Source of the DNA: Bacilli bacterium | GTDB taxonomy: Bacteria > Bacillota_I > Bacilli_A > RFN20 > CAG-826 | Direction: 5' to 3' | Length of the DNA: 43,541 nt | Assembly (NCBI GenBank): GCA_017534425.1 | Contig: JAFXWB010000011.1 | Location: 1 to 43,541 of the forward strand | In this document: positions 21,201 through 26,116 of the stretch, in pieces | How positions within the stretch are numbered: the stretch's first letter is position 1 | Layout of the letters: every line of letters begins with the position of its first letter | Position numbers and translations under genes: made by a program | The notes under the pieces: generated by a model | The model's database searches: none | Told to the model about the DNA's origin: nothing | What the model saw: the letters and a program-made list of their open reading frames with translations, nothing else

Positions 21201-22625
21201 CATAACTCCACTAAAGATATTTTTGGTGAAGCTAATGTCTATCGTGCTGGAACAATTTCAACAGTTGCTGATAAAACTGCATTTGGTTATGTCCGTAACT
21301 ATTTTGAGTATAAAGGTATTGATCCAAGCACAATTCCTGGTGAAAGAATTGCGTATATGGCTTCTCACTGTACTGATGTTAAACGTACAACGGGACAGCA
21401 CCCTGGTGGAATTGTTGTTCTTCCAAAAGGAAGATCAATTTATGAATTTACCCCTATTCAATATCCTGCAGATGATAAGGATGCAGATTGGTTGACTACT
21501 CACCTTGATTATCACGCGGCCTTGGATGCTCAACTTCTTAAACTTGACCTTTTAGGTCACGTTGACCCATTAGCATTACGTTTAATGTCTTTAATGACTG
21601 GTGTTGATGTAAAAACAATTCCATTAAATGACAAGAAGGTTATTTCACTTTTTACTTCCACAAAAGCACTCAATTTAAGTGAAAACTTCCTTAAGACAAA
21701 GATTGGTTCTTCTGGATTACCAGAATACGGAACTGAAACATGTCGTGATATTTTGCTTAAAGCTAAACCAAAAACATTTGCAGAAGTTGTCGCTGTTGCA
21801 GGTCTTGCCCATGGTACTAACGTCTGGCAGCATAACCAAGAAGATTTGATTAGAAACGGAACAATGGATTTACATAATTGCGTCGCTGCTCGTGATGATA
21901 TTATGAAGTATTTAATTGCTCACAAAGTTGCATCAGATGTTGCTTTCGAAACAATGGAAAAAGTACGTAAAGGTAAGAAAATTCCTGAGAAATACATACC
22001 AATTTTAAGAGAACACGGCGTTCCAGAGTTCTACATAAATGCTTGTAATAAGATTAAATATCTCTATCCAAAAGCCCACGCTGTTGCATACGCTACAATG
22101 GCTGTTCGTGTTGGATATTTCAAAGTATATTATCCGCTTGAGTTCTATGCTGTTTGGTTCTCAGTTCGTTGTGATGCATATGATATTTACACAATGCTAG
22201 CCGGTTTTGAAAAAACAAAAGAAAGATACGAACAATTAACTAGACTCATTAACGATAGAACCCAAAAAGTTGTTAAGAAAGATGAAGACCTTCATGATAT
22301 GTTTGAGGTTTGCATTGAAATGTTTGAACGTGGATTTAAATTTGGAAACATTGACTTATATAAGTCAGATGCTACAAAATTTATATGCGATCACGAGAAT
22401 GGTTTACTAATTCCTCCATTTATCGTTATCGATGGTCTTGGCGAGGCAGCTGCTGATTCAGTTATTGAAGCTAGAAAAGCAGGAAACTTCAAATCTAAAG
22501 AAGATTTACTTAGAAGGACCAAATTAAATGGCACTAACGTTGAAGATTTAGATAGACTTGGTGTTTTAAAAGGATTAGGTGATTCAGATCAAATGTCATT
22601 ATTTGAATTTGGATTAGGCGAATAA
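18291..22625 (+). CDS. polC: DNA polymerase III alpha subunit, PolC type
   Basis: PolC is the replicative polymerase of Firmicutes with built-in proofreading. The 1444-residue protein has, in order, an N-terminal PolC region, an OB fold (about 220-310), the first PHP part (VELHLHTKMSAMDG near 320), an inserted DEDDh exonuclease (FVVFDLETTGLS near 404, SHNITFDYGF near 485), the rest of PHP, the polymerase with GSRGSVGSSL, a Cys4 zinc module (CPKC...CPVC near 905) and the catalytic PDIDLNFPSDYQ near 955, then thumb and C-terminal HhH region. The last bases abut tRNA-Pro, which starts two bases after the stop. Confidence 0.97.
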   Translation: MNDKMRRFLTSIGIENLERFDMDFDIVTRNTFNREQIDMFIIKETPWKYELLEEFLTHLESVKYPYQMKFSYIKKPMASDATKLFQEWHYSHCRYNSNLKVFGIGNTITIFYDSEEEKAKNEQIIKDYVQFLDFIGYNFKIDHKITTNSEEKQVISDSQKVNKEMNQDEERTLQAFQTTVTEMRHQMESNTKISQSWKEKIPYKKVDDISKLNEDSTNVIVEGQLYGIDKPKIIRNGKTMLTCGLGKGDSGISLKIMENEDITPEFMETELKNEKWARVRGYVSRDYRKNLSIDVRYIELMDGPELRTDNEPEKRVELHLHTKMSAMDGVTSTSDYFKLAQNMGHRALAITDHGVVQSFPDAQAAQKKTGVKALYGVEFYMVNDELPFVLNPVDIPLNKATFVVFDLETTGLSTRYDKITEFGGIRFENGQIVKTLQMFINPERPVPPAIVKKTKITDEMLRDKPTIEQSIDKILEFMDGAILVSHNITFDYGFIAETLRKMGREPFVKPAIDTLSLSRYLFPDASGHKLGNLSRNLGMDIYDDDDAHRADYDARVLNEVWLAMLHRLTKDNRNLLHSDLAKLKTTAPMLKHMMPAHVVALAKNEQGIKALFELVSLSHVDYFANVPKIPKREIARLRENLLLGSACQNGEIFEIERTRSKQDLLDAMQFYDYIEVQPPGNFVNLINKGFYDNQTIINAFLMDIVECADSIGKMVVATGDVHYANPEDKISRDIYIAAKAVGGKFHPLRLSDPTLPNPDQHFRTTREMLDAFSFLGEEKAKEIVITNTNKIADMCETMEPIHTSLEKPEIPNSDKMLTEACFAKAHELFGDEIPQDIVDRLNKELEGINGNGYSVTYYIAREIISRANKEGYMVGSRGSVGSSLAAFLYGITEVNPLAPHYRCPKCRHFEYSDDPNCYSGSDLPEKKCPVCGAKMIHDGQEIPFETFLGFHAEKVPDIDLNFPSDYQAKAHNSTKDIFGEANVYRAGTISTVADKTAFGYVRNYFEYKGIDPSTIPGERIAYMASHCTDVKRTTGQHPGGIVVLPKGRSIYEFTPIQYPADDKDADWLTTHLDYHAALDAQLLKLDLLGHVDPLALRLMSLMTGVDVKTIPLNDKKVISLFTSTKALNLSENFLKTKIGSSGLPEYGTETCRDILLKAKPKTFAEVVAVAGLAHGTNVWQHNQEDLIRNGTMDLHNCVAARDDIMKYLIAHKVASDVAFETMEKVRKGKKIPEKYIPILREHGVPEFYINACNKIKYLYPKAHAVAYATMAVRVGYFKVYYPLEFYAVWFSVRCDAYDIYTMLAGFEKTKERYEQLTRLINDRTQKVVKKDEDLHDMFEVCIEMFERGFKFGNIDLYKSDATKFICDHENGLLIPPFIVIDGLGEAAADSVIEARKAGNFKSKEDLLRRTKLNGTNVEDLDRLGVLKGLGDSDQMSLFEFGLGE

Positions 22626-22627
22626 GT

Positions 22628-22703
22628 CGAGGCATAGCGCAGTTGGTAGCGCATTACTTTCGGGAAGTAAGGGTCATGAGTTCGAATCTCATTGCCTCGA
22701 CCA
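22628..22703 (+). tRNA. tRNA-Pro (anticodon CGG)
   Basis: A 76-base cloverleaf: acceptor CGAGGCA/TGCCTCG, D-stem GCGC/GCGC, anticodon stem TTACT/AGTAA with loop TTCGGGA (anticodon CGG, codon CCG), T-stem ATGAG/CTCAT with TTCGAAT, discriminator A and encoded CCA. It begins two bases after the polC stop codon, so it must be processed from a polC transcript or be driven from inside polC. Confidence 0.93.
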
Positions 22704-22723
22704 TCTGAAAACTGAACTTAGGA

Positions 22724-22755
22724 TTGAAAAATAGAATTCTATAGTTTACTATAAT
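22724..22755 (+). promoter_or_regulatory. Possible promoter of the antitoxin RNA upstream of toxN
   Basis: TTGAAA (22724-22729) and TATAAT (22750-22755) lie 20 bases apart; an overlapping TACTAT (22747-22752) gives the normal 17. The promoter would sit between tRNA-Pro and the candidate antitoxin RNA. Confidence 0.4.
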
Positions 22756-22832
22756 AATAGGCCTCCATTAGCCATAGGGAAACCTAAAAGAGATGAACTT
22801 TATAGAAAGGAGATTTTTTCTCCTTTTTTTTT
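22756..22832 (+). ncRNA. Candidate type III antitoxin RNA (ToxI-like) with terminator
   Basis: Between the possible promoter and the toxN start is a stretch of about 75 bases with a GNRA hairpin TAGG-GAAA-CCTA (22776-22787) and a 7-bp terminator AAAGGAG/CTCCTTT (22806-22812 with 22820-22826) followed by a run of Ts (22824-22832). In ToxIN-family systems the antitoxin RNA precedes the toxin and is separated from it by just such a terminator. Clear tandem repeats, normal for ToxI, are not visible; only a weak similarity between TGAACTTAGG (22713) and TGAACTTTAT (22794) exists. The call therefore rests on position. Confidence 0.45.
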
Positions 22833-22847
22833 GTTTATTTAGTGATT

Positions 22848-23423
22848 ATGAAATTAAAAGATAACAAAATTATTTTAGTTAATATTAACCAAAATTATTT
22901 AAAATTTTTGAGTGGCTATGATAATGAAGTATATTTTAAAGAAACTAATTATGAAAATAAACCGTATTTAGGTGTCTTAGTAACCTTTAATAATGATGAA
23001 TATGCTATACCATTTTCTTCTGCAAAACAAAAATATAAATATTTTTCAGATTTTTGCGATGGGAAAATGCTAATATATGAAAATGCCGCTCCTTCTCGTA
23101 TGTCAAAAAAAGATGTTTGGATTTTGCAATCAGATGGAAAAGCGAAACATATTTTAGCGATTTTAAATATAGGCAAAATGATTCCTTTAAAAAATGGATG
23201 TTGCACAATCGTTAATATTAATCATTCTTCAATTGATTCAGTTAGAGAAAGAAAATATAAAGATTTATTAAATAAAGAGTTCCAGTTTTGCGTTCGTCAC
23301 AAGGAAGAAATATTAAATAGAAGCGAAGAAATTTACATTGAACAATTAAAAACGAAAGTAGTTAAATTCAGTTATTGTGATTTTAAAAAACTTGAGATGG
23401 CAAGAGATTCATATAAAATATGA
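22848..23423 (+). CDS. ToxN/AbiQ-family type III toxin endoribonuclease
   Basis: ToxN-family proteins are MazF-like-fold endoribonucleases held inactive by a cognate RNA; several act in abortive infection against phages. The 191-residue product matches the family from its opening through YLKFL, then PYLGVLVTFNNDEYAIPFSS with K downstream (family pattern: GVxxxxNxxxYxxPLxSxK), LAILNIGKMIPL (family NLxxMIPV) and a C-terminal YKDLLNKEFQFCVRHKEEI helix followed by KFSYCDFKKLE. The nearest start codons are GTG 22842 and ATG 22848; ATG is used, with no Shine-Dalgarno site, only the T-run of the upstream terminator. The AT content is higher than in the housekeeping genes. It lies between tRNA-Pro and tRNA-Arg. 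Confidence 0.8.
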   Translation: MKLKDNKIILVNINQNYLKFLSGYDNEVYFKETNYENKPYLGVLVTFNNDEYAIPFSSAKQKYKYFSDFCDGKMLIYENAAPSRMSKKDVWILQSDGKAKHILAILNIGKMIPLKNGCCTIVNINHSSIDSVRERKYKDLLNKEFQFCVRHKEEILNRSEEIYIEQLKTKVVKFSYCDFKKLEMARDSYKI

Positions 23424-23474
23424 TGTTGTGAATAATGAAATATACTCCTTGTTTGCAAATTAATCTAAAGAAAT

Positions 23475-23551
23475 GCGCCAGTAGCTCAATTGGATAGAGC
23501 GTCTCCCTCCTAAGGAGAAGGCTGAACGTTCAAGTCGTTTCTGGCGCGCCA
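23475..23551 (+). tRNA. tRNA-Arg (anticodon CCT)
   Basis: A 77-base cloverleaf with acceptor GCGCCAG/CTGGCGC, D-stem GCTC/GAGC, anticodon stem TCTCC/GGAGA with loop CTCCTAA (anticodon CCT, codon AGG), T-loop TTCAAGT, discriminator G and encoded CCA. It stands alone between toxN and a kinase gene. Confidence 0.94.
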
Positions 23552-23599
23552 TAATCGTATACATACTTTGATACAAAGTTGAATATGCGAAAAACCGCA

Positions 23600-23627
23600 A
23601 AAATGCTCAGAAATGGGCATTTTTTCT
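23600..23627 (+). terminator. Terminator downstream of tRNA-Arg
   Basis: Stem ATGCTC/GGGCAT (23603-23608 with 23615-23620, one G-T pair) with a 6-base loop and six T residues. Confidence 0.7.
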
Positions 23628-23708
23628 TATATTTCTAATAAAAATAGTAATAATTTGTCAGATCTGTTGTGTTAAAATTGTCTGATAAATAAGAATTTGT
23701 AGGTGCGA

Positions 23709-24439: not shown

Positions 24440-26116
24440 ATGAAGAAACTATTTAGATTTGGAGTTGTTTCGCTGGCGTTAGCGATGTGTTTTGGTGCCG
24501 GTGCTTTGGCTTTGAAAAACATGAAAATGCCACAAAAAGTCGATGCATCAGGGGAAGCTTGGGTTGGATTGGACGGAACTGGCATTGTTGGCACCTATTT
24601 CAACACAGCAAATGAAGCACTTCATGCACAGGCAAGTTCAATGACTTCACGAGGCATCAAACTTTTAAGAGACACAACAGAAAGTGGCAACATATGGTTA
24701 AATACGACAAATGTTATTGTTGATTTAAATGGTCACACATTAACCATTGGTGCCAGCGGTAGCGAAGTCAATCGTTTTATCGGCATTAGAGATTATACTG
24801 CTCGTGGCAACATTGAAACCAATGTAACTTTGACTATTATGAGTTCTGTTTCTGGTGGAAAAATAAATGGTTATTGTGCTGATTCCATTTTTTACATCGA
24901 TCCTTCTAACGCTACAGACGAAGACGGCAAACAAAATAGTCATACTGCAACTGTTAATATAAATCCTGGTGTTCAAGTTAAAAACTTTGGCACAGGCAGG
25001 ACAATCCTTCTTCATAAATCGTCTACTTTGAATGTTCGAGATGGTGCATCAGTTATAACAACGTGGGCTGCCCAACCAGGAGTAATTAATTATGGCGGTA
25101 GCATTACAAACTGTGGAACTATTCAAGGTGTTAATAACGCAGTTATTCTTCAACCAGAAGAAGTCAATGGCGTCCAAACCACACCTAGTATCTCTTTATC
25201 CGGAGCAAACGCTCTAGCGACCCCACGCATTTTATCCAAAAGAAGTGGAGGTGTTAATCTTAGTAATTATAGTTTCTCTGAAAATAATACTTCTGTTAAT
25301 CCGGTCAATGTTGTTTTTGATAGCAATGTTACATTAAGTGATAATCTCAATATTTTTAGCAATATACATTGGAAATATAAAAATACTTTTAATAATTATA
25401 TTTCGGTAAGTGCGAATGGCAGTACTCATCACACTTTAACATGGGCTCAACAAAAAGCTAATGAAACCGGATATTTAAGATGGGTTAGAAACACATATAC
25501 TGTTTCATATAATATCAATGGTGGCAAATCTGGGACGACATCTAGCCAAAACGCTTCTGCAGAATCAAGCGTCACATTAAAAAATAATTATTTTACGGCC
25601 CAAGACTATCACTCATTTAAAGAATGGAATACACAACCAGATGGAAATGGAGCTTCTTATCAACCTGGTGTGTCGTATCAAGTTAACGGCAACATAACTT
25701 TTTATGCTATTTGGTATCAAACCGATACAAATGTTTATGATGAATTTAGAATTGAATATCTTCATATAAATGATTACACCGAAGAAAAAGGTTGGTGTAT
25801 GAATAGTGATGAACATCATTATTATTCAACCGCGAAAGACTATTTTGAAAATAGTATGACTAAGAATCAAAGAGTGTATTTTGCTGGTCATTACTCTGAT
25901 GAATGGGATAGATTCAGAGCCTGGGCGGCTGCGAACGGAGAAACAATCATCCTTGAATCTGGTGATTATGTTATTCAATCTTCCAATGCTGGAGTCAGTT
26001 TTATCCCCGTCGAAACAAATAACGCTGCAATTTTAGTTGTGGCGATTTCTGCAATGACAACTTCAATTGGTTTTGCAGTTCTTATCTTATTGAAAAAGAG
26101 ACATTCGCATAAATAA
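24440..26116 (+). CDS. Cell-surface protein with Listeria-Bacteroides (InlB B-type) repeat
   Basis: The 558-residue protein is probably exported and membrane-anchored. It has an N-terminal signal peptide (about 1-36, FGVVSLALAMCFGAGALAL), a long beta-rich, Asn/Thr/Gly-rich region (about 40-350) with pectate-lyase-like short strands such as VIVDLNGHTLTI, one Listeria-Bacteroides repeat (about 354-425, from YTVSYNINGG to ITFYAIW with FKEWNTQPDGNG inside), and a C-terminal hydrophobic helix (about 525-550) ended by KKRHSHK. There is no LPXTG, so anchoring is by the C-terminal membrane segment. The domain before the anchor (DEFRIEYLHINDYTEEKGW to FRAWAAANGE) is of unknown function. Adhesion is the usual guess for such proteins. 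It has no operon partner and is flanked by repeat copies A and B. Confidence 0.7.
   Translation: MKKLFRFGVVSLALAMCFGAGALALKNMKMPQKVDASGEAWVGLDGTGIVGTYFNTANEALHAQASSMTSRGIKLLRDTTESGNIWLNTTNVIVDLNGHTLTIGASGSEVNRFIGIRDYTARGNIETNVTLTIMSSVSGGKINGYCADSIFYIDPSNATDEDGKQNSHTATVNINPGVQVKNFGTGRTILLHKSSTLNVRDGASVITTWAAQPGVINYGGSITNCGTIQGVNNAVILQPEEVNGVQTTPSISLSGANALATPRILSKRSGGVNLSNYSFSENNTSVNPVNVVFDSNVTLSDNLNIFSNIHWKYKNTFNNYISVSANGSTHHTLTWAQQKANETGYLRWVRNTYTVSYNINGGKSGTTSSQNASAESSVTLKNNYFTAQDYHSFKEWNTQPDGNGASYQPGVSYQVNGNITFYAIWYQTDTNVYDEFRIEYLHINDYTEEKGWCMNSDEHHYYSTAKDYFENSMTKNQRVYFAGHYSDEWDRFRAWAAANGETIILESGDYVIQSSNAGVSFIPVETNNAAILVVAISAMTTSIGFAVLILLKKRHSHK

Follow-up and report, generated by a model that had tools for sequence, protein, structure and literature searches.

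A ToxN/AbiQ-type toxin locus with a single candidate antitoxin unit, located between two tRNA genes of a small-genome Bacilli bacterium

The window, by which we mean the whole analyzed stretch of 43,541 nucleotides, carries a locus that is probably a type III ToxIN-like system working with a single antitoxin unit. This reading is based on the family of the toxin, its intact active-site residues, one conserved structured RNA unit, a terminator, the lack of any other copy of the unit, and the insertion of the locus between two tRNA genes; we further infer promoter activity, a pseudoknot, processing, neutralization, and phage defense. The RNA antitoxin of type III systems usually consists of two to five repeats in a row. 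On our best reading, what is new is a one-unit antitoxin in an otherwise known ToxN/AbiQ-type system of a small-genome bacterium. The features of the locus are as follows.

22628 to 22703, forward strand: tRNA-Pro (CGG), found with ARAGORN and Rfam, the left neighbor of the cassette.
22724 to 22752, forward strand: possible promoter, TTGAAA-17-TACTAT, from a consensus scan (9/12 positions).
22755 to 22805, forward strand: single ToxI-type antitoxin unit of ∼51 bases, from the match to covariance model R2 and alignment A3.
22760 to 22773, forward strand: stem 1 of the unit, GGC/GCC around the 8-base loop CTCCATTA, from the fold and pair counts (GGT/ACC in relatives).
22766 to 22795, forward strand: proposed pseudoknot stem 2, CATT (22766 to 22769) with GATG (22792 to 22795).
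22775 to 22786, forward strand: extra hairpin inside the unit, TAGG-GAAA-CCTA (GNRA), present in the minimum-energy fold and kept in relatives.
22804 to 22832, forward strand: intrinsic terminator between the antitoxin and toxN, a stem-loop (22804 to 22828) followed by a T run.
22848 to 23423, forward strand: toxN, encoding a ToxN/AbiQ endoribonuclease toxin, identified with PF13958, PADLOC, and phmmer.
23475 to 23551, forward strand: tRNA-Arg (CCT), the right neighbor of the cassette.

The product of toxN matches PF13958 with an E value of 3.4e-36 and 125.2 bits (cutoff, 25) across residues 10 to 189 of 191, far from the background score that an earlier note on this DNA had named as an argument against its assignment of the protein, over its length, to the ToxN/AbiQ family. 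It also matches the PADLOC AbiQ profile (E value, 2.5e-20) and, by phmmer, the solved ToxN structures 4ato, 7d8o, and 2xd0. The catalytic residues of ToxN are K33, T52, S53, and K55 in Pectobacterium and E. coli numbering (PMC8860590). Residues K38, S57, S58, and K60 of the window protein align with them, so that all four positions are kept, with a conservative replacement of T52 by S57. The frame encodes 191 amino acids counted from the ATG, and an alternative GTG start at 22842 is possible. The whole assembly, representing a genome that is 98% complete, contains one toxN and one antitoxin unit. A missing Shine-Dalgarno sequence ahead of toxN was considered as an offset for the low antitoxin dose and was dropped, as such a site precedes only 10 of the 33 larger frames in the window and several single-unit loci have one.

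The antitoxin unit was located with covariance model R2, which comprises nine units and leaves out that of the window to avoid circularity. R2 matched the window at 56.4 bits (E value, 1.7e-15), with the next match in the window at 11.7 bits; when 22500 to 23550 was scanned with the filters off, the same single match was obtained and the next scored 6.5 bits. When the spacer was searched directly for another copy, the scores stayed within those of shuffles, and an R2 scan of the whole assembly found no second unit elsewhere. The earlier note had likewise seen no clear tandem repeat and only one structured unit of about 50 bases. The window unit keeps all positions that are invariant among the aligned units. 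Rfam, at gathering and relaxed thresholds, reported no antitoxin family for the spacer; it also reported none for the arrays of three relatives and is therefore uninformative here. Published accounts regard repeats as central to type III systems or as part of their definition (PMC5086642, PMC12373285), and repeats served as a search criterion for the family (PMC5086642). The window has only one unit, one that is homologous to the units of repeat-bearing ToxIN loci, and under a strict repeat-based definition the locus is therefore a variant rather than a plain member.

The closest toxin relatives found are L004, from the same family of bacteria, and L013, a human fecal contig filed as phage. 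Both carry two tandem units with the layout GGT-CTCCATTA-ACC, hairpin, AAAGAGATGAAC, compared with one unit with GGC/GCC in the window. The CTCCATTA loop and AAGAGATGAAC are identical in all three loci and the hairpin is in the same place, although the toxins, the nearest by sequence, share only 39% (L004) and 43% (L013) identity with that of the window. This comparison bears on the three possibilities left by the earlier note, namely, a single-unit antitoxin, a diverged antitoxin, and a toxin that had lost its partner. The last is rejected because a homologous antitoxin unit is present in the spacer. Between the other two, the homologous spacers decide for a single-unit antitoxin, since L004 and L013 carry two copies of the window-type unit and R2 recognizes a single copy in the window. 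The spacer unit is thus conserved among relatives, the opposite of what the earlier note had said would speak against its reading.

Several observations support the interpretation of the unit as a folded RNA. Across ten aligned units, compensatory changes are present at 2 of the 4 pairs of stem 1 (UA to CG in the window and AU to GC in L018 and L172); the window stem lacks the fourth, outer pair. The covariation score of stems 1 and 2 together was reached by 0/500 shuffles and by no slid version. Stem 2 can pair in 10/10 units, yet it is invariant and therefore lacks covariation, and CTC/GAG is an equally possible alternative pairing; the proposed pseudoknot would place stem 2 where other ToxI units appear to use it. 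The GNRA hairpin, which the earlier note had picked out by eye, is part of the minimum-energy fold, and only 0.02% of shuffles fold as well. In eight units, the summed energy of the inner hairpin is −26.9, versus −4.1 ± 2.6 in mononucleotide shuffles (0/2,000 reach it), and its pairing is kept among relatives despite changes in sequence and length, being weak in L172.

The unit is preceded by a candidate promoter and followed by a terminator. Promoter matches of this type numbered 9 in the AT-rich window versus 5.7 ± 2.5 expected, so the pair reported in the earlier note is present and plausibly placed, but its 9/12 match is not clearly above chance. It is the position of the pair that makes it a plausible promoter: a TATAAT at 22750 to 22755 overlaps it, the predicted start (∼22759) is the first base of the antitoxin stem, and L004 and L013 likewise have TATAAT immediately ahead of their first unit. 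The terminator, proposed earlier from its AAAGGAG/CTCCTTT stem, is borne out by a fold z score of −3.15; 2 intrinsic terminators were found in the stretch versus 0.4 ± 0.7 expected, and this one lies in the canonical place for the ToxIN family, between antitoxin and toxin.

In type III systems, read-through of this terminator sets the excess of antitoxin, and the toxin is freed once the labile RNA is lost. At the window locus, the candidate promoter just after tRNA-Pro would give an RNA of ∼75 bases, consisting of one ToxI pseudoknot unit and the terminator. Most transcripts would end at the terminator, yielding an excess of antitoxin, while a minority would read through to produce ToxN, which would bind the unit, trim any end needing trimming, and stay inactive. 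If transcription stopped, for example, during phage infection, the labile RNA would be lost and ToxN would cut RNA of both the cell and the phage. With a single unit per transcript, each RNA would neutralize one toxin rather than two to five.

The locus shares most features with the ToxIN systems of Pectobacterium atrosepticum and Bacillus thuringiensis and with AbiQ/antiQ, including a PF13958 toxin with the same active-site positions, a structured RNA unit whose first stem is short and closes an 8-base loop, and the intervening terminator. It differs in repeat number (one unit versus 2.8 to 5.5) and in unit length (∼51 bases versus 34 to 36), the latter owing to the additional hairpin that separates the first stem from the 3′ part. 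CptIN of Eubacterium rectale is also type III and has a longer unit, of 45 bases, which assembles into a 2:2 complex, but it belongs to another toxin subfamily with another RNA and has 2.1 repeats. AbiF/RCd22 of Clostridioides difficile similarly has a structured RNA antitoxin that shows little repetition, lies upstream of the toxin, and is not cut between its motifs (PMC12373285), although both toxin family and RNA are unrelated to those of the window and RCd22 contains two motifs. Laboratory work reportedly put the requirement at about 2.5 repeats for ToxI of Pectobacterium and 1.8 for antiQ (PMC5086642), which counts against a one-unit antitoxin and, with a possible assembly collapse, is the chief doubt about it. 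On the other side, a single ToxI repeat appears to be protective when overexpressed in E. coli, as judged from mutant tests (PMC3475682), and a CptI construct with only one repeat has been prepared for an antitoxin assay of the same overexpression type (PMC4627078).

The genomic setting points to acquisition of the locus. tRNA-Pro, noted earlier as the neighbor of the toxin locus and situated immediately upstream of it, follows the gene for DNA polymerase III alpha, an arrangement conserved in the genus. In the nearest same-genus genomes without the cassette (L038, L039, and L040; polymerase III fragment 77 to 90% identical), tRNA-Pro and tRNA-Arg are 3 to 5 bases apart, and they are nearly as close in many other members of the genus; in some relatives, other sequence follows tRNA-Pro. 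The window has a cassette of ∼770 bases between the two genes. Because these almost adjoin in sister genomes, the toxN cassette is most simply read as an acquired insertion. Farther to the right, at 23540 to 23700, ∼70 to 100 bases after tRNA-Arg are nearly identical to their counterpart in L044 (genome G037), beyond which the sequence differs, and a frame of 558 amino acids at 24440 to 26116, which combines a Listeria-Bacteroides repeat domain (PF09479) with a membrane-like segment at the C terminus, likely encodes a surface protein.

To place the window among other ToxN loci, the upstream regions of ∼44 loci from its family, its class, and a few sources elsewhere were surveyed by eye and by self-comparison, giving approximate counts. 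About 26 of the ∼44 loci have three or four units, mostly three; five have two units, one of them beside a broken toxin; and six to seven have one (the window, L027/L010, L029, L015, L099, L116, and, tentatively, L120). No unit was recognizable by these means at seven loci (L028, L033, L035, L104, L108, L110, and L121), and a few loci were broken or masked. The toxin tree places L116 as sister to L117, a three-unit locus, and nests L099 within a clade of three-unit loci; L010, L029, and L120 share a clade with L028, L033, and L035, where no unit is recognizable. Given these positions, single-unit ToxN loci most likely arose several times. Some of the surveyed loci have further peculiarities. 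L027 and L029, from the genus of the window, combine a diverged ToxN with a different and apparently single unit and share the leader TATAGGTGCTTAGARATAAGC. The three intact ToxN genes L028, L033, and L035, upstream of which no antitoxin repeat is recognizable, reside in one genome (G061). At L116 (G580), two ToxN loci are in tandem: the first has one antitoxin unit, and the several units of the second are of another type.

Window-type units were also found in phages. An exact pattern of the two conserved parts of the unit matched three IMG/VR contigs, and a scan with the 14-mer GGTCTCCATTAACC added two phage records, L167 and L172, which score 53.4 and 49.6 bits with model R1; neither is part of R1, though both were picked by the 14-mer. 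The loose pattern TCTCCATTA...GAGATGAAC matched 35 phage stretches, none of which, beyond the three already known, keeps the stem, and scans with GGCCTCCATTAGCC, TAAAGAGATGAACTTTA, and GGTGTCCCACTACC yielded no further convincing phage units. The five records (217, 150, 139, 147, and 29 kb), which may be fragments, have exactly one window-type unit each, as follows.

L017, 2275 to 2328: window-type unit, alone, without ToxN.
L018 (150-kb phage record), 10832 to 10920 including a second unit: window-type unit between head-gene frames, without ToxN.
L019, 8381 to 8434: window-type unit flanked by a tRNA cluster and an endolysin gene, without ToxN.
L167, 981 to 1036, minus strand: window-type unit, alone, without ToxN.
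L172, 7936 to 7987, minus strand: window-type unit, alone, without ToxN.

A profile search found no ToxN match in these five records; it gave no match in its built-in control genomes either, but the same profile does find toxN in the bacteria. A protein search of viral contigs also found no relative of the toxin. The second unit of L018, directly after the first, is of another ToxI type and matches the L111/L113 antitoxin (score, 46; shuffle maximum, 30), and the pair is likely a mixed array of antitoxin mimics. Judging from sequence, the solitary phage units are likely antitoxin mimics that would disarm the toxin. The pseudo-ToxI of phage PhiTE is a known precedent for a ToxI-like unit in a phage, comparable to the phage copies rather than to the window itself; in PhiTE, escape came only after the 1.5 repeats had expanded (PMC3475682).

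The solitary unit in the window could be explained in other ways. The natural locus might have two or three units that collapsed to one in the draft assembly, which comprises 72 contigs with 6% contamination; tandem 51-base copies can be miscounted by short-read assemblers, and the nearest relatives, L004 and L013, have two units. We regard such a collapse as unlikely, as many other surveyed drafts retain three near-identical units, the copies within the L004 and L013 arrays differ from each other (L004a versus L004b and L013a versus L013b), and assemblies from other clades (L015, L099, and L116) also show single units. A decaying system, having lost its repeats and with a toxin or antitoxin that no longer works, appears quite improbable: the toxN frame is full length with the four catalytic positions kept, the unit retains all of its invariant positions together with a compensatory change that restores pairing, and the terminator is intact, although this family and class do contain decayed ToxN genes (L008, L034, and L114) and repeat loss can accompany decay.

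The location of the unit directly upstream of the terminator would also suit a cis-acting leader that controls transcription or translation of toxN rather than a trans-acting antitoxin. This is hardly credible for a unit that is tandemly repeated, as an antitoxin would be, in L004 and L013 and that exists alone, without toxN, in five phage records. A type III system with a single-unit antitoxin remains our preferred reading of the locus.

More broadly, we tentatively suggest, as a possibility on the doubtful side, that type III systems have a recurrent single-unit mode of operation, where a monomeric RNA with its own promoter and terminator would undergo little or no inter-unit processing and control ToxN one to one, and the same units would circulate as solitary, sometimes mixed, mimics in large phages infecting these hosts. 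Single-unit ToxN loci appear as a recurrent variant in several clades and would escape searches that rely on repeats. With a natural one-unit system, a long-standing question can be addressed directly, namely, whether cutting and ring assembly require repeats or whether repeats serve dosage only, and the solitary phage units provide a natural set of candidate RNA counter-defenses against such a system.
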